Source: Bacillota bacterium
Lineage (GTDB): Bacteria > Bacillota > Bacilli > Alicyclobacillales > SLC66
Reading direction: 5' to 3'
DNA: 64,000 nucleotides
NCBI GenBank assembly: GCA_021820975.1
Contig: JAKADA010000005.1
Span: 1-64,000 of the forward strand
A program made the translations under genes and the position numbers. Below the pieces are notes generated by a model. That model did not search any database. It saw only the letters and a list, made by a program, of their open reading frames with translations, and was not told the DNA's origin. Positions 1,811 through 11,863 of this stretch are shown one piece after another; positions within the stretch are counted from its first letter, which is position 1; the number at the start of each line of letters is the position of its first letter.

Positions 1811-2047
1811 TTATTTTATCTTTTTAACGACAATTCGATCGTATCCATCGCACGTTTCTACACCGACAAATTCTTGTTTTGCTTTTTCTACCCATTTAGG
1901 GATATCTTTCTTAGATCCTTGATCAGTTGATAAAACGGCAATCACGTCACCGACAGTAGCACTACGAATCACGCGAATTAATTCCATCATAGGGCCGGGA
2001 CAAAAACTTCCACGCGCGTCAATTTCTTTGGTGATTTCCATATCCAT
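1811..2047 (-). CDS. tusA: TusA-family sulfurtransferase
   Basis: Small sulfur-carrier protein of 78 residues. The family motif CPGPMMEL near the N-terminus holds the persulfide-forming Cys, followed by the alpha-beta-alpha-beta-beta fold ending VGVETCDGYDRIVVKKI. TusA proteins pass sulfane sulfur between donors and acceptors. In sulfur oxidisers they work with DsrE and rhodanese partners upstream of sulfite-forming enzymes. The ATG at 2047 is chosen because AAAGGAG lies 10 nt upstream; a GTG at 2056 would sit 1 nt from that SD. It is last in the minus-strand order SQR-DUF1641-DsrE-TusA. Confidence 0.9.
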   Translation of the reverse strand: MDMEITKEIDARGSFCPGPMMELIRVIRSATVGDVIAVLSTDQGSKKDIPKWVEKAKQEFVGVETCDGYDRIVVKKIK

Positions 2048-2095
2048 CGATGTCACGCTCCTTTTTCATCACTTCATGATTAAACTGCAATTTGT

Positions 2096-2518
2096 TTAAA
2101 TGAACATCGTTGTACCTGCTTTTTGCGCCATATCGATAAATTCACCAACGCCGATGATATCTTCAATAACAGGCTCAAGATCATCTATATCCATATTAAA
2201 TAAATCAGCTGTCATCGCGCAGGCATAGATATGCACATCGCCGAGTTCTTTCGCTTGAAGAAGGGTATCGTACCAAGACGGTACATTTTTCTCTTGCATA
2301 ACGCGCATCATTTCGGGACCAAGTGCTTCATAATCTTTACTAACTTGATTGATTTTATAAGGTTCGCCTTTTTTAAAAGCCATCAATCCCCAAAAAGTTA
2401 GAAAAATATCGACACGCATGTCATTCATTACGGCACCTGACGCCATAATGGCAACGGGGTACAATTTATCCACAGTTCCATTAAATACGACCAAACTCAT
2501 ACGATTGCTATCACTCAT
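2096..2518 (-). CDS. DsrE/DsrF-like (DsrE2-type) sulfur-transfer protein
   Basis: 140 residues with the DsrE fold: LVVFNGTVDKLYPVAIMASGA at the N-terminus, then DIFLTFWGLMAF typical of the DsrE2 subgroup, and a conserved Cys in YACAMTADLF as the likely persulfide site. DsrE-type proteins bind sulfur and exchange it with TusA, which is encoded just downstream. No membrane segments are strong enough to call. SD GGGGGCG precedes the ATG. Confidence 0.87.
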   Translation of the reverse strand: MSDSNRMSLVVFNGTVDKLYPVAIMASGAVMNDMRVDIFLTFWGLMAFKKGEPYKINQVSKDYEALGPEMMRVMQEKNVPSWYDTLLQAKELGDVHIYACAMTADLFNMDIDDLEPVIEDIIGVGEFIDMAQKAGTTMFI

Positions 2519-2533
2519 GACAAACGCCCCCTA

Positions 2534-2959
2534 TCAGTTTTCAGAAACTGACTTACCTAAACGCTTTAAAAGTTCTAAAGCAACTTCAAGACCCACTCGC
2601 GTTTCGGGATCTTTGAGTGCTGACATGACTCGTCGAATTGGACCGCCGGTCACCGTGGGTGGGTGATCAAGTACGTCACTAACTTGTGTTAGAGCATCCG
2701 GCATTTTCTCTAAAAGTCCTATTTGCATCACTTGATCACCAAGCAAACCTATGTTTGAAAATGTTTTTACAAGACCTGCGATGATTTCTGGTGTCATAGC
2801 ATCAAGCGCTGCCGTTAAAAAGGAAAGAACCTGAATAACTCGTTCAAATTGACCACTTTGTTCGAGCAATGCTACCCTTTCTAAAGCCTTGGCAAACGCC
2901 TCGCCGTGTTCGTCAAAGACTTTGCTGTTTTGTGCCAAAAAATCACTGGCATCCGACAT
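2534..2959 (-). CDS. DUF1641 family protein
   Basis: 141-residue, almost entirely helical protein with the DUF1641 core (LLEQSGQFERVIQVLSFLTA, then MTPEIIAGLVKTFSNIGLL). Its biochemical role is not established. In Bacillota the family is repeatedly encoded beside SQR-like flavoproteins or formate-dehydrogenase-like genes, as here, which suggests an accessory role in membrane sulfide oxidation. SD AAGGAGGGG precedes the ATG. The gap to SQR is 27 bp, so the genes are likely cotranscribed. Confidence 0.85.
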   Translation of the reverse strand: MSDASDFLAQNSKVFDEHGEAFAKALERVALLEQSGQFERVIQVLSFLTAALDAMTPEIIAGLVKTFSNIGLLGDQVMQIGLLEKMPDALTQVSDVLDHPPTVTGGPIRRVMSALKDPETRVGLEVALELLKRLGKSVSEN

Positions 2960-2986
2960 AAAATCCCCTCCTTTCTACGCATTTTG

Positions 2987-4132
2987 TTACACCAAACCAC
3001 GCAGACTCAGCCAATACATCTCGTTAAACGCCAGTTTAAAATCATGTACCAGAGGCCCTTGAATCGATGGTGTGGGTGGATTTTGATAATCGAATTCAAT
3101 ATGTGTTGCCTCTTCTAATCCTGCTTCGATAAAGCAAAATACTTTTCCGTTGTATGCAGCGACAGGTTGTTCGCCTCGCAACTCTTTAGCGATATTAGCC
3201 GCGATCACCTCGGATTCATAATGAGCCGTAGAGCCCGCTTTGGAAATCGGTAAGTCAGTTGCATCCCCCACGACATATACACCTTGCTGTCCTTTCATTT
3301 GCAAAGTTTGTCGATCCGTTGGAATCCAACCGTCCCCCTCTGCAACTTTGGAATCTCGAATAATTTTTGCGCCTTTATGAGGTGGAATACCGACTAAAAG
3401 ATCGTAATCGACTTCCTCACCTTCAAGGGTAAATACTTTTTTTCTCGATGGATCGATTGATTCCGCATTGAAGAATATTTCTGACGATATATTTCTACGT
3501 TCAAATTCATTTTCTGCCCAAGTTGCCACATGTTCCAAAGAATGTAATCTACCGATCGGATACGTATAATACAGGTTAACTTGATCACGCTTTGCTGTTT
3601 TCCGTAATTTATCGTCGAGCATAAAAATGAATTCTAAAGGGGCAACCGGACACTTATGTGGAACACCGATGATCAAAAGTAATTTTCCTTGATCGAAAGT
3701 TTGAATTCGTTCTCTGAGGTGCATCGCTTCATTGTACGTATAAAAAGATTCGGCACCTTCACGAAACCCTTCGATAGCATCAAAATCAGGTACGGAACCT
3801 GTCGCGATGACGAGAATGTCATACTCGATTTTCTTGCCGCTTTGACAAATGACTTCTCGATCGGACAAGGAAATATGGACGCAAGGGTCGACGAGATTTT
3901 GTACACCTGGCAATAAAACCTGTTTTTGCGGCTTTTTGAAATTTTCAGGGAAAGCTAGATCCAGTGCAACATACAGTAATCCAGGTTGATACAAGTGCGA
4001 AGTAACGTCGTTGATCACGATGATCTCAACGCTGCCTGAACGAACATCTTGCGGGATCAGACGAGCGAGTCGATTAGCCGTCATAACTCCTCCCGTACCA
4101 CCACCGACGATGACAACACGCTGTTTTGCCAA
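2987..4132 (-). CDS. sqr: Sulfide:quinone oxidoreductase-like FAD protein
   Basis: 381-residue flavoprotein of the pyridine nucleotide-disulfide reductase fold. RVVIVGGGTGGVMTANRLA binds FAD; ATGS and VVGDATDLP are the second and third FAD motifs. Two SQR cysteines are visible, in HKCPVAPLEF and KVFCFIEAG, matching the usual redox pair. The third cysteine found in many SQRs (near residue 128) is absent, which suggests a two-Cys type. SQR oxidises sulfide at the membrane and passes electrons to quinone, leaving polysulfide. TTG at 4132 gives MAKQRVVIVGG with SD GGGGTG at good spacing; GTG at 4141 is the alternative. First gene of the sulfur operon. Confidence 0.85.
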   Translation of the reverse strand: MAKQRVVIVGGGTGGVMTANRLARLIPQDVRSGSVEIIVINDVTSHLYQPGLLYVALDLAFPENFKKPQKQVLLPGVQNLVDPCVHISLSDREVICQSGKKIEYDILVIATGSVPDFDAIEGFREGAESFYTYNEAMHLRERIQTFDQGKLLLIIGVPHKCPVAPLEFIFMLDDKLRKTAKRDQVNLYYTYPIGRLHSLEHVATWAENEFERRNISSEIFFNAESIDPSRKKVFTLEGEEVDYDLLVGIPPHKGAKIIRDSKVAEGDGWIPTDRQTLQMKGQQGVYVVGDATDLPISKAGSTAHYESEVIAANIAKELRGEQPVAAYNGKVFCFIEAGLEEATHIEFDYQNPPTPSIQGPLVHDFKLAFNEMYWLSLRGLV

Positions 4133-4497
4133 CTCTTTCACCCCAGTCTTTAAAAAAAAGTGTAATATACCCTACCCCGCACCCTATGTAACAAGTCTAT
4201 CATAGGGAAGTATTGACCCACTATCCGTCAAAAGAGCTAACTCTTGAACGTAAATGGATCATGAAATTTTTGAATTTATAGTCTAATCAGACCTCGGGAG
4301 TCATGTACACGGTTACAATGAGCTATGTAGCTGCTCTCAGTAACTGGAGTTTGATCGAATTAAACTGCAACATTGTCATAATTCCATTTTGACGTCCAAA
4401 ATATGCGATGGATTTCGCAAATCCTGTACTGCTATGTCGAATCAATGGTGAACGAGTCCGGCTTATTCATTTGAACTATTTGATGTGATCTAAAAGA
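4133..4497. other. Intergenic region upstream of the sulfur operon
   Basis: No intact gene is seen. It must hold the SQR operon promoter; one loose candidate on the minus strand is TTACAT, 16 bp, then TATATT near 4160. A minus-strand stretch at about 4326-4436 reads TGFAKSIAYFGRQNGIMT then KLQLLRA with stops around it. It looks like a decayed coding fragment of unknown family. Confidence 0.35.
4182..4207. promoter_or_regulatory. Inverted repeat upstream of the SQR operon
   Basis: CCCTATG (4182-4188) and CATAGGG (4201-4207) form a 7-bp inverted repeat with a 12-bp spacer, about 50 bp before the SQR start. The size suits a dimeric regulator site. No regulator is identified. Confidence 0.3.
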
Positions 4498-4531
4498 ACG
4501 AACCACCAACGAGCAATCGTTGATGGTTCGT
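4498..4531 (-). terminator. Intrinsic terminator after the beta-propeller gene
   Basis: Read on the minus strand, ACGAACCATCAACGA pairs with TCGTTGGTGGTTCGT (one G-U wobble, 4-nt loop) and is followed by TCTTTT. The wobble forms only in the minus-strand RNA (it is a C-A mismatch on the plus strand), which supports that direction. Confidence 0.8.
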
Positions 4532-4560: not shown

Positions 4561-5589
4561 TTACGGAATAACGTTCCAACGATTGGATTCTACATTAGCG
4601 TATGTGGATACGATCTTACCTGTCTGTAAAGAAACACGAACGGTTTCTTTTTTATTCTCAACCGTTGTATATGCATATTGGTCAGATGGGTCAATAGCAA
4701 TTCCGCTTAGTTTTGCCATCGAAATGTCAATGGGAATATTTTTTTCAAAGGAAATTTTTTGAGCATTGTACACCATGATATTTCCACTAAAAGAAGCTGC
4801 GTATACCGCTTTTCCTTTTGGATCAACGGCTAATTGCATGAAACCACCTGTGGAATTCATCATGTTGTTCATGGAGAAACCGCCACCTTCACTCTCCTTA
4901 ATGACTTTTAGTACATGATTATTTTGAGTATCCAACACGGTCATATCCCCGTTTTTCCAGTTTGCTAACCACAAAGTATGCGTTTGTGGATCAATAACAG
5001 AGTCCTCAATACCACCTACAGGAATTTTCGAAAGGACATGACCATTTTTTACATTGAATTCTGTTGTGCTATTGGATGTATTACTTGATAGATAGGCGTG
5101 ATTGCCAACAATGGAAAGGGCGTTTCCACCTATGGAGTCTTGCCAGGTTACTTTGTGAGAGGGGAATGCATAAGCAGTGAGGTTTTTTCCTCCTGCAATA
5201 AGGAGCAAATGATTTGCCGCTGATAGGGCAGAAATTCTAGCACCTTTTGGCGAAGTGAATTGAGATGTGATTTGATGGGTTTTCCAGTCTACTATGTAGG
5301 TGGTTCCCTGTAATGTCGGTACATAGGCGATGTTTCCAACAAGAGCTATTTGAAAGGCATTTGCTCCCTGAGCTAACTTGATTTTTGCTACATGTCCTGT
5401 TTGCGTTGGATCGATGAGTAGATTGCCGTTACCCATTCCCATGGCGGGACTAGCTGCGGCACCTAGTAAAATATCATGCACGGGAATTGAGGCAGAGTGA
5501 ATACTTTGAGCATTAGCTATTTGCTGGGTTTCCAATCCTGCTCCTGTTAGCAACATAATCATGAGAAAAGTTATTTTTTTGGATCTCAT
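4561..5589 (-). CDS. Secreted YncE/YVTN-like beta-propeller protein with Met-rich loops
   Basis: 342 residues. An N-terminal signal peptide (RSKK, then a hydrophobic core, cleavage near IANAQS) is followed by repeated 40-50-residue blades of the YncE/YVTN type, such as NIAYVPTLQGTTYIVDW and KAVYAASFSGNIMVYNAQ. No cysteine is present. Two Met-rich patches stand out: PAMGMGNGN near residue 50 and FSMNNMMNSTGGFM near 238-251, which could bind a soft metal such as Cu(I) (inference only). ATG 5589 has SD GAGGAG 7 nt upstream. Its promoter overlaps a long palindrome with a BlaI-type operator, tying it to the regulator gene upstream. Substrate or partner unknown. Confidence 0.75.
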   Translation of the reverse strand: MRSKKITFLMIMLLTGAGLETQQIANAQSIHSASIPVHDILLGAAASPAMGMGNGNLLIDPTQTGHVAKIKLAQGANAFQIALVGNIAYVPTLQGTTYIVDWKTHQITSQFTSPKGARISALSAANHLLLIAGGKNLTAYAFPSHKVTWQDSIGGNALSIVGNHAYLSSNTSNSTTEFNVKNGHVLSKIPVGGIEDSVIDPQTHTLWLANWKNGDMTVLDTQNNHVLKVIKESEGGGFSMNNMMNSTGGFMQLAVDPKGKAVYAASFSGNIMVYNAQKISFEKNIPIDISMAKLSGIAIDPSDQYAYTTVENKKETVRVSLQTGKIVSTYANVESNRWNVIP

Positions 5590-5596
5590 CAAGATT

Positions 5597-5649
5597 CTCC
5601 TCTCGATCTATATACTACACAATGTAGTATATAGATCGAGAGGAGTCAA
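5597..5649 (-). promoter_or_regulatory. Promoter plus BlaI-type operator in a 23-bp perfect palindrome
   Basis: On the minus strand a -35 TTGACT (5644-5649) and -10 TACATT (5621-5626) are 17 bp apart. The -10 lies in TACTACAcaaTGTAGTA (5613-5629), which fits the BlaI/MecI/CopY consensus. The symmetry continues outward to arms of 23 bp (5597-5619 and 5623-5645, 3-bp spacer) and includes the SD, so the mRNA could also fold to mask the ribosome site. The same layout precedes the BlaI gene. Confidence 0.8.
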
Positions 5650-5681
5650 GTACTTGAAAGTAGATTTTAGGCATGCCTAGG

Positions 5682-6521
5682 TCAATGACATAAAACGAGG
5701 AGTCCTTCACCTGCGGTAAGTAAGATAGCAATAAATGTAGCCATGAGGCGATATCTGATTTGCCGATTCCACAAAGGAGGTAATTGACGTGTCTCAAGAA
5801 ATTGTAAACGTGCTTCTAAAGTGCCGTTCAGACAGACTTGTACTTCATGACCTAATGTTGGCTTTGAAGCAACCAATAAAGCTGTAATTAGCGGTACATC
5901 ATCATCATCGCAAGCTTTGATCGCTATGCGATCCGCATCGATTTCACGACGTAACATATATTTGCGATAAAGTTCTCCTAGGCCTAGCAAAGGTAGTGCA
6001 CCAGATAAAACCTTGAGAATCGACTGCTGGAAGGAATCGTGTGCTAAAACATGGGCTATTTCGTGGTACATGACAGCTTTTCGGGATGATTCGTCCAATA
6101 CATTCCATAATCCTGTAGAGATACAAGCTTTTGAATGAAAAATACCCCATGTAAAGGCATAGCGTTGTATGTCATCATTCAATAAAAACCATTTCGTTGA
6201 GCGTAGAAGTTCATCGTGAATAACCGTGGGAAAAGGGAGAAGTTTGACTAGAATACGGTCTGCCATCGCACGATTTAGCTGGCGATACTTCAGTGAAAAT
6301 AGCAAGATTCTGTACCAAAAAAGCATCATAATCACCGCCAACACGACCATACTCATCCAGAGCCAAATTGGTCCTGAAGGGTGTCCCTTCATCATTCTAT
6401 ACCATAGAAGATGATGCAAACCGCTTACTAGCGTGAAAGCCATCGAGGCGGCGATAATCAAAGTTATCATAACGGCAGTTAAGGAATAGGTGTATTTATT
6501 GAAAAATCTAAATACTCTCAT
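5682..6521 (-). CDS. Short M56-family (BlaR1/MecR1-like) membrane metallopeptidase
   Basis: 279 residues with two N-terminal membrane spans (about 12-40 and 49-75), the zinc motif YHEIAHVLAHD, a second acidic ligand motif REIDADR, and further hydrophobic segments after the active site including one at the C-terminus. BlaR1-type proteins cleave the cognate BlaI repressor after signal sensing. This protein lacks the penicillin-binding sensor domain that BlaR1 (about 600 residues) has, so its signal is probably not a beta-lactam, or it senses through its membrane part. ATG overlaps the blaI stop (ATGA), a translationally coupled pair. Confidence 0.82.
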   Translation of the reverse strand: MRVFRFFNKYTYSLTAVMITLIIAASMAFTLVSGLHHLLWYRMMKGHPSGPIWLWMSMVVLAVIMMLFWYRILLFSLKYRQLNRAMADRILVKLLPFPTVIHDELLRSTKWFLLNDDIQRYAFTWGIFHSKACISTGLWNVLDESSRKAVMYHEIAHVLAHDSFQQSILKVLSGALPLLGLGELYRKYMLRREIDADRIAIKACDDDDVPLITALLVASKPTLGHEVQVCLNGTLEARLQFLETRQLPPLWNRQIRYRLMATFIAILLTAGEGLLVLCH

Positions 6522-6898
6522 GATTCGTTCTCCTTAGCACGGCGTTGTGCAAGAAGATCTTCGAGCTTTTCGATTGCATCGGGTTGAATTTGATCAATCG
6601 CATCTAAAAAATGGGAAAATCCTACTTCACCGGATTGCGACAGCAGGTCTATGGCTGCACGAGTAGCAGTTTCTTTGATAGCTTCGTCACTGGGCTTCGC
6701 TTCATAGACGTACAGTCGGCGTGTACCTGTACGAATCAATAGATCTTGCTCTACTAATCGATTGAGTACGGTTTGCACAGCATTTAAAGAAATTGAACGT
6801 GTTTGACGCAGAGTTTCACAAACATCCGAAGCACTGCAGGGGCCTTTTTCCCGTACTAACCATATTACTTTTTGACGCAATGACTCAGTATACATCAC
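6518..6898 (-). CDS. BlaI/MecI/CopY-family transcriptional repressor
   Basis: 126 residues. A winged-helix domain spans about 1-75 (SLRQKVIWLVREKGPCSASD, then SLNAVQTVLNRLVEQDLL as the recognition region), followed by a C-terminal helical dimerisation part. There is no CopY-type C-terminal CxC metal site. Members bind TACA/TGTA dyads and are inactivated by cleavage by a paired M56 protease, encoded here immediately downstream. A matching operator overlaps its own promoter and that of the propeller gene, so autoregulation is expected. The start is GTG at 6898 (GAGG 7 nt upstream) or ATG at 6895. Confidence 0.88.
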   Translation of the reverse strand: MMYTESLRQKVIWLVREKGPCSASDVCETLRQTRSISLNAVQTVLNRLVEQDLLIRTGTRRLYVYEAKPSDEAIKETATRAAIDLLSQSGEVGFSHFLDAIDQIQPDAIEKLEDLLAQRRAKENES

Positions 6899-6913
6899 GC
6901 ATCATCCTCATTT

Positions 6914-6950
6914 TACTACACACTGTAGGATACTACGTTATCTGTGTCAA
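6914..6950 (-). promoter_or_regulatory. blaI promoter with BlaI operator
   Basis: Minus-strand -35 TTGACA (6945-6950), 17-bp spacer, -10 TACAGT (6922-6927). The dyad TACTACAcacTGTAGGA (6914-6930) overlaps the -10 with the same spacing seen at 5613-5629. Confidence 0.8.
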
Positions 6951-7818: not shown

Positions 7819-8631
7819 GTGAATGTCGTCGCATCCCAAGCTCAGCATCACAACATCAAAAAAGTATGTCAGGTACTTGGAATCGGCCGTAGTAGCTATT
7901 ATTTCTCTACCCATAAACGTCCTGCTGGACGTTTGAAAAACCAAAACAGGCTTCTGAGACAGGAAATTACGAGAATTTACCATGAACAGGATGGCATTTA
8001 TGGTGCACCTAAAATTAGTGCAGAATTAAAGAAGTTGGATTTACCTTTTCAGGTCAGCGAAAAACGAGTGCAGCGTATCATGAAACGACCCTACAAAACA
8101 GACGCCGTGTATAACGGGGGAGAGAATTTACTCAAGCGGGATTTTTCTACGACTAAAATCAATGAAAAATGGGTCAGTGATCTGACCTCTATTCATACGA
8201 TTCGGGATGGTTGGTGCTATTTAGCTTCGATTATGGACTTAGCCACCAACAAAATGATTGGATGGCGTTTCAGCAAAACCATGGATAGAGCCTGTGTATT
8301 GTCCGCTCTACATCAAGCGATAACGACACAACGACCGGCCAAGAACGTGATCCTTCATTCCGATCGAGGAAGTCAGTATACCAGTCACGAGTACCGTGAA
8401 GAACTGTTTCAGCAAGGATTTCGTCAATCCTTTTCAGCTAAAGGATGTCCCTACGATAATGCACCCATTGAAAGCTTTCATGCTATTTTGAAAAAGGAAA
8501 TAGTTTACAGAACGATTTTCACCTCTTCCTGCGAAGGCAATCCATCTTCGCCAGACCTCGTCGGGCAAACTCATTTAACATTAGAATTTTACACTTGTAG
8601 CCCCAGTCGGTTGGGGCTCTTTGTGTTGTAG
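7819..8631 (+). pseudogene. IS3-family transposase orfB with replaced C-terminus
   Basis: The N-terminal HTH_21-like part (VCQVLGIGRSSYYF) and the rve catalytic core are intact, with Asp in KWVSDLTSI, Asp in HSDRGSQYTS and Glu in APIESFHAILKKE. After about residue 230 the sequence leaves the family (RTIFTSSCEGNPSSPDLVG) and ends early. The C-terminal helix after the catalytic Glu is missing, so it is probably inactive. Confidence 0.8.
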
Positions 8632-11575: not shown

Positions 11576-11863
11576 ATGCGAGTGTATGACAAAGAATTCA
11601 AAGAAGAAGCGATAAAATTGTCCTATGAAGTCGGGCCAACAGCTGCCTCAACACAACTGGGGATCCCATCCACAACGCTATACACATGGAGAAGCCAAAG
11701 GAATCAGCATGGCTTCTTGGCGTTTGTGGGCAGCGGCCATCAACGTATCAATCCGAAAACCGCTGAGTTGAAGGGGTTAGAAAAAAAGATCAAGGAACTG
11801 GAATCCGCCAATGATATCTTAAAAAAGGCGTTAGCTTTTTTCGCAGAGAGCCAAAAGAAGTAG
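11576..11863 (+). CDS. IS3-family transposase orfA
   Basis: 95 residues: helix-turn-helix region (YDKEFKEEAIKLSYEVG, then ASTQLGIPSTTLYTWRSQ) followed by a leucine-zipper-like helix (LKGLEKKIKELESANDILKKALAFF). This is the complete orfA of an IS3-type element. The partner orfB is almost completely deleted, so the element is defective. Confidence 0.82.
   Translation: MRVYDKEFKEEAIKLSYEVGPTAASTQLGIPSTTLYTWRSQRNQHGFLAFVGSGHQRINPKTAELKGLEKKIKELESANDILKKALAFFAESQKK

Follow-up and report, generated by a model that had tools for sequence, protein, structure and literature searches.

In the window (the whole stretch of DNA that was analysed, 64,000 nt), a secreted beta-propeller is very probably under the control of a BlaI-family repressor and a reduced BlaR1-type membrane protease, as judged from the sequence. 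The model as a whole, i.e., an autoregulated repressor-protease module in which signal-triggered cleavage of BlaI would derepress both transcription units, was assigned a probability of about 0.6. The three genes are collinear on the minus strand, and the following genes and predicted control elements were identified:

6518-6898, minus strand: blaI (P0002), coding sequence of a BlaI/MecI-family repressor
5682-6521, minus strand: M56 protease gene, coding sequence of a short BlaR1-type membrane metalloprotease (279 aa)
4561-5589, minus strand: propeller gene, coding sequence of a secreted seven-bladed YVTN/YncE-like beta-propeller
4498-4531, minus strand: intrinsic-terminator-like hairpin of 15 pairs, 3' of the propeller gene
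6922-6950, minus strand: blaI-M56 promoter, TTGACA-17-TACAGT (promoter scan)
6914-6930, both strands: blaI-M56 operator dyad, TACTACA-N3-TGTAGGA, exact and located on the -10 element
5621-5649, minus strand: propeller promoter, TTGACT-17-TACATT (promoter scan; register common to relatives)
5613-5629, both strands: propeller operator core, TACTACA-N3-TGTAGTA, an exact dyad located on the -10 element
5597-5645, both strands: perfect palindrome with 23-bp arms and a 3-nt loop, centred on the propeller dyad

The original prediction had described a BlaI-type repressor coupled to an M56 protease by a 4-bp overlap, with which the open reading frames 6518-6898 and 5682-6521 agree, TTGAC(A/T)-17-TACA(T/G)T promoters in front of both units, which the promoter scan found at the same positions, and dyads overlapping the -10 elements in the same register, which proved exact at 5613-5629 and 6914-6930. 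The palindrome was absent from that prediction, although its start coordinate (5597) coincides.

Beyond the module, TusA-like, DsrE-like, and sulfide:quinone-reductase-like genes were read from the translations at window positions 1811-4141, which possibly form a sulfur-oxidation cluster; this cluster is not conserved beside the module in other genomes. Pieces of IS3-type transposases were likewise read from the translations near the module (7819-8631 and 11576-11863).

Repressor, protease and propeller

The residues and loops of the three proteins considered below are encoded at the following positions:

6608-6610, minus strand: codon F97 of BlaI, predicted cleavage site H96|F97 (alignment to S. 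aureus BlaI)
6390-6413, minus strand: predicted extracytoplasmic end of TM1 and short EL1 with H37, W40, and M44 of the protease (AF2 helix 11-45, loop 46-51)
5688-5690, minus strand: C278 of the protease, a C-terminal Cys just past the last TM helix (17/17 orthologues; AF2 helix 253-278)
4834-4878, minus strand: Met loop of the propeller, FSMNNMMNSTGGFMQ, residues 238-252, conserved in orthologues

The blaI product matches PF03965 (E=2.4e-14; 54 bits against a curated cut-off of 22.6), which assigns it the winged-helix domain of the family, and its best PDB sequence matches are the SaBlaI/MecI structures. By alignment, ATG 6895 is a likelier start than GTG 6898. S. aureus BlaI is cleaved with Phe102 at P1' (PMC9834060), and F97 of the module repressor aligns with this residue, so that a cleavage site is predicted here; the P1' Phe is invariant across orthologues, though the aligned residue Tyr/His precedes it in some.

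In the M56 protease, the HEXXH motif at 153-157 (H153/E154/H157) and E193 are invariant among orthologues, as expected of a zinc site. Pfam scored the open reading frame as M48, the M56 sequence match being weak. The AF2 model (pLDDT 82) places the zinc site between TM helices 11-45, 52-91, and 253-278, and its best PDB match by Foldseek was BlaR1 8EXS (E=4e-4) with a modest TM-score of 0.47. The protein ends at residue 279 directly after the last TM helix, at the point where the sensor of BlaR1 would begin, and the beta-lactam sensor model NF000326 scored 12.7 bits against a cut-off of 400; an M56 protease without a beta-lactam sensor domain had indeed been proposed. The stub between helices 1 and 2 corresponds to EL1 of BlaR1, which has been implicated in the beta-lactam signal (PMC9834060). 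With the topology taken from the AF2 model and the comparison with BlaR1, we infer that H37 (conserved in 16/16 orthologues), W40 (15/15), M44 (14/15), and C278 face outward; the ligand set of CusF/SilF is His/Trp/Met/Met (PMC10656224). The EL1 Cys is absent from the module protease, in which His/Trp/Met are kept in its place. Among Bacilli, many short M56 proteins that do not belong to the module have such a Cys (L122, L171, L172, L177, L179, L180, L185, L187, L189, L190, and L197), and TlpA/ResA thioredoxin-like genes adjoin the short M56 genes in L122, L171, and L172, a hint that M56 proteases without a sensor domain may sense redox state or metals. In A. ferrooxydans (L029), about a dozen tandem GTCATTGAA(T/G)ATTGGT-like repeats start at the M56 stop codon, and a shorter version, GTCACTGATGGGT, occurs in L028.

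The propeller has a signal peptide and, according to its AF2 model (pLDDT 82), seven blades. Its nearest solved proteins by sequence and fold are the archaeal S-layer YVTN propeller 1L0Q, the best match, and YncE 3VGZ. The YncE equivalog NF052280 gave 33.7 bits against a cut-off of 400, only the fold matching, and YncE/YVTN models scored the protein weakly, below every family cut-off. Matches to L-NosZ and hydrazine synthase were weak and under the cut-off. The two Met-rich patches that had been pointed out correspond to M50/M52 and M240/M243/M244/M251, while the accompanying remark that Cys is lacking holds for the protein of the window and fails for most relatives, which have a lipobox Cys. 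In the Met loop, M251 is conserved in 17/17 orthologues, M243 and M244 each in 16/17, and M240 in 13/17; across orthologues, Met makes up 27% of residues 238-252, compared with 2.6% of the remaining domain, and loops of greater length carry additional Met. The linkers of relatives are mostly Met-rich (7.8% Met overall) and often follow a lipobox; the propeller of the window has neither a Met-rich linker nor a lipobox. At pH 3.5, Cu(I)/Ag(I) is still bound by motifs made up of Met only, and no longer by His residues (PMC9117721).

From the gene order, operators, conservation, covariation, and predicted folds, which were observed or computed, we infer operator binding, repressor cleavage, the identity of the signal, and the role of the palindrome. 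In the resting state, BlaI dimers on both dyads over the -10 elements would limit expression of blaI-M56 and the propeller gene. A signal from outside the cytoplasm would act on the short M56 protease via the EL1 stub (His37/Trp40/Met44) and the C-terminal Cys278, a small outer surface that may stand in for the penicillin-binding sensor of BlaR1. The cytoplasmic zinc protease would then cut BlaI near H96|F97, both promoters would open, and the propeller would be exported as a surface (lipo)protein. The signal and cargo may be a soft metal held by thioether-rich sites still working at acid pH; Cu(I) or Ag(I) is tentatively put forward as the most likely choice, and the sensing of copper may plausibly explain why the device exists.

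The copper idea is supported circumstantially by the Met loop, the Met-rich linkers, the presumably outward His/Trp/Met/Cys, the distribution among acidophiles, and a palindrome in Ferroacidibacillus. In the latter (G012/G004; L122:6196-6245 and, mirrored, L123), a second palindromic operator (TTGATG-17-TACACT, arms of about 15) lies in front of an operon for a response regulator, a histidine kinase, and a multicopper oxidase, and this operon adjoins a paralogous BlaI-M56 pair with TlpA- and CcdA-like genes; this pair may be the reader of the palindrome. The oxidase region is near-identical between the genomes, adjoins transposase-like sequence in one of them, and is apparently mobile DNA, so it counts as one independent observation and, as a copper lead, is suggestive only. 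No multicopper oxidase was found in the own genome of the window. The conserved His/Trp/Met/Cys of the protease could be structural only, His37 would be protonated at very low pH, which counts against a metal reading, the propeller is without a close relative of known metal function, and the acidophile distribution suits iron, acid, or redox stress equally with copper.

Somewhat less than an even chance was given to the same circuit answering another signal, namely cell-envelope, acid, redox, or antibiotic stress, with the outer Cys as a thiol/redox switch or the conserved residues structural, and with the propeller as a wall or S-layer scaffold or a binding protein. The closest solved fold, an S-layer YVTN propeller, the classical response of BlaI/BlaR systems to wall stress, and the EL1 Cys of many non-module M56 proteins, three of them encoded beside TlpA/ResA-like genes, are consistent with this; however, the module protease keeps His/Trp/Met instead of that Cys, and the propeller loop is 27% Met, with more Met wherever it is longer. 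The most specific form of the metal reading, in which a minimal BlaR1 relative senses Cu(I)/Ag(I) directly with H37/W40/M44/C278, cuts BlaI, and releases a Met-rich propeller from an operator with a structure-conserved palindrome, is rather unlikely to hold in full. If it is true, acidophilic Gram-positives would possess an equivalent of CopY and CusRS that works by proteolysis, and the promoter would contain an element selected for pairing rather than sequence.

Operators and the palindrome of the propeller promoter

Promoter-like sites were not above chance in the region (18 vs 16.4 in shuffles), so the promoter hexamers alone prove nothing. The dyad gave four strand matches at two sites of the window against 0.05 expected (0/100 shuffles). 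The composite -35/-10/half-site pattern has only two exact matches in the own 2.47 Mb genome, both at the module promoters, and exact matches to the composite promoter-operator pattern are also located at module promoters in most genomes that have the module. In the module loci, the propeller promoter core TATACTACA-N3-TGTAGTATA is nearly invariant, with the -10 element on top, and TTGxxx-17-TACxxT was scored in the same register in 13/18 propeller loci. Four loci, mostly Sulfobacillus-type, scored best with a 15-nt spacer; by inspection, they would return to 17 nt with a -10 element two bases away (e.g., CATAAT). The blaI promoters of relatives have a looser dyad, about TTCTACAAnnnGTAGTAAA. 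A predicted BlaI operator of inverted TACA/TGTA is present and conserved.

A third dyad match in the own genome (C41:427-443; L001, L038), before a secreted alpha/beta hydrolase gene, was rejected as a regulon member and judged to be chance, since it lies outside the promoter register, has one half-site mismatch, and lacks long arms. One-mismatch operator matches in other genomes were not called regulon members because their counts were no higher than those of the reversed-pattern control. In A. tolerans (L028), three extra dyads or half-dyads (TGTGTAGTAAAAT-like, spaced by about 27 nt) lie about 110-180 nt upstream of blaI, which suggests a multi-site operator.

The palindrome covers the promoter spacer, the -10 element, the probable start site, and the Shine-Dalgarno sequence of the propeller gene. 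Its folding energy as a DNA hairpin alone was -24 kcal/mol (z -12), and that of the 141-nt RNA around it was -48 kcal/mol (z -7.4). For the arm test, sequences were aligned on the dyad centre, and right arms were dealt to other species as the null. Palindrome positions 3-10 are nearly fixed, and positions 11-20 vary between species yet pair: at the propeller promoters, 122/170 pairs at positions 11-20 were Watson-Crick against 59.5 expected (sd 7.3; 0/20000), and the same test on 11 blaI promoters gave 34/110 pairs against 31.2 expected, which is not significant. An independent tool returned a covariation score of 0.42 against 0.06-0.16 for slid pairings; the shuffles leave relatedness in, the slid control keeps it, and the sequences come from many genera. 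The arms covary at the propeller promoters and not at the blaI promoters, so that what is conserved in them is pairing rather than sequence, and this only at the target promoter. A sequence that varies cannot be read by BlaI; therefore, either the arms do something else or template switching makes them.

In the former case, the palindrome would be a second control layer at the target promoter, dependent on structure rather than sequence, in the form of a hairpin in M56 read-through RNA or an extruded cruciform. The transcript of the propeller's own promoter would start inside the right arm, stay unstructured, and be unable to form the hairpin, into which M56 read-through RNA would fold. The palindrome may insulate the propeller gene from blaI-M56 read-through, and in the window it would also hide the Shine-Dalgarno sequence. 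The few arm mismatches show a G-U strand asymmetry (one sense-type vs five antisense-type) that, if anything, does not favour a sense RNA, and no known RNA family was found at the hairpin in Rfam.

Template switching, in which one arm is copied onto the other (quasipalindrome correction), would give perfect, species-specific arms that have no function, and it is a serious alternative to a second control layer, given less than an even chance. Several paired bases differ between the two congeneric Ferroacidibacillus, the Shine-Dalgarno sequence of the window is mirrored in the promoter spacer as such copying would give, and the arms are short in some Sulfobacillus-type loci. Against it, the blaI dyad of the same genomes has no excess pairing, and arms are lacking around chance matches to the core elsewhere, though in both cases the cores are less perfect and would be weaker seeds. 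An ordinary intrinsic terminator of blaI-M56 that overlaps the next promoter is an unlikely reading of the palindrome: its position just past the M56 stop, the very stable RNA hairpin, and the T-rich tails of several species (5-6 T in 8) would suit one, but no T-run, and hence no U-tract, follows the stem in the window (AATCTTGA) or in about half of the relatives, and the palindrome was not in the output of the terminator scan.

Distribution and inheritance of the module

In 61 whole genomes, the matches of the propeller, protease, and repressor coincided and were collinear in most carriers. In total, 17 loci were taken from a scan of named genomes, and the three-gene order was intact in 12 of them (L129-L138, L141, and L145); the linkage that the original prediction had proposed to look for in relatives is thus not absent. 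In L139, L140, and L144, the module is cut by contig ends or disrupted, and L142 and L143 have the propeller alone, with no blaI/M56 and no operator. The carriers include Alicyclobacillus mengziensis, A. tolerans, A. ferrooxydans, A. sp. ALC3, Ferroacidibacillus organovorans, Alicyclobacillaceae I2511, Sulfobacillus benefaciens, S. harzensis, and Bacillota MAGs; these genera are acidophilic and inhabit metal-rich habitats. An all-against-all comparison of the flanking open reading frames of the module loci revealed no fourth conserved gene. In Alicyclobacillaceae I2511 (L144/L036, G032), the module has decayed: the reading frame of the protease is interrupted, and about 2.4 kb separates two pieces of the propeller.

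The three gene trees agree on supported clades (the Ferroacidibacillus pair; A. mengziensis, A. ferrooxydans, and ALC3; the Sulfobacillus-type pairs), and since these clades are shared, the genes seem to have been passed on together. That the propeller and blaI-M56 are mere neighbours and the propeller is independently expressed is highly improbable: G001 and G014, in which the propeller occurs with neither blaI/M56 nor the operator, would fit this, but the operator is missing wherever the blaI-M56 pair is missing, and the other loci, given enough contig, have all three genes and an operator on the propeller promoter. The proposal that both units form one regulon is strengthened by the same operator and promoter architecture, the linkage in two bacterial families, the absence of the operator without BlaI/M56, and the shared tree clades.

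Comparison with known systems

With a protease almost without a sensor, the module would take the BlaI/BlaR1 signalling principle beyond antibiotic resistance, and it offers a clean minimal system in which to study how M56 proteases receive signals from across the membrane. At its propeller promoter, covariation maintains a DNA/RNA palindrome within promoter sequence, a case open to direct testing. Should the signal prove to be copper, bacteria similar to those employed in bioleaching would have a metal-response system not described so far.

With the staphylococcal BlaI-BlaR1 and MecI-MecR1 systems (8EXP/8EXS, PMC9834060), the module shares the BlaI winged-helix repressor, the membrane zinc protease of BlaR1 fold, the dyads on promoters, the predicted autoregulation of repressor and protease, and the P1' Phe. 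Unlike BlaR1, the module protease has no penicillin-binding sensor, its EL1 is a stub, and it has a C-terminal Cys; the target is a propeller and not a beta-lactamase or PBP, the target promoter has a long structured palindrome, and the dyad spacer is 3 nt rather than 2 nt. CopY/TcrY (TIGR02698) has a related TACA/TGTA operator, RNYKACANNYGTMRNY (PMC7253601), and gave the top NCBIfam score for the module repressor (32 bits). However, this score is far under the cut-off of 122, the module repressor has no C-terminal Cys-X-Cys metal site and no C-terminal Cys, and it is paired with a protease. In M. tuberculosis, the BlaI Rv1846c, with the short M56 protein Rv1845c as its partner, controls genes beyond a classical bla operon; this system belongs to another phylum, has other targets, and is not known to include a propeller. 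The BlaI regulons of C. thermocellum are small (one to three operons) and autoregulated, as is predicted for the module, but have inverted GTCTAT repeats in pairs and no propeller (PMC8457756). The YncE/YVTN surface-layer propellers (3VGZ, 1L0Q) share the secreted seven-bladed YVTN-type fold, whereas the module propeller has a conserved Met loop and putative BlaI control, with a Met-rich linker and lipobox in relatives. The original prediction knew of no described system of this exact composition, and none was found in the open-access literature searched. The module would work in the manner of BlaI/BlaR1, with parts from the BlaI and M56 families, and is neither a beta-lactam sensor system nor CopY.
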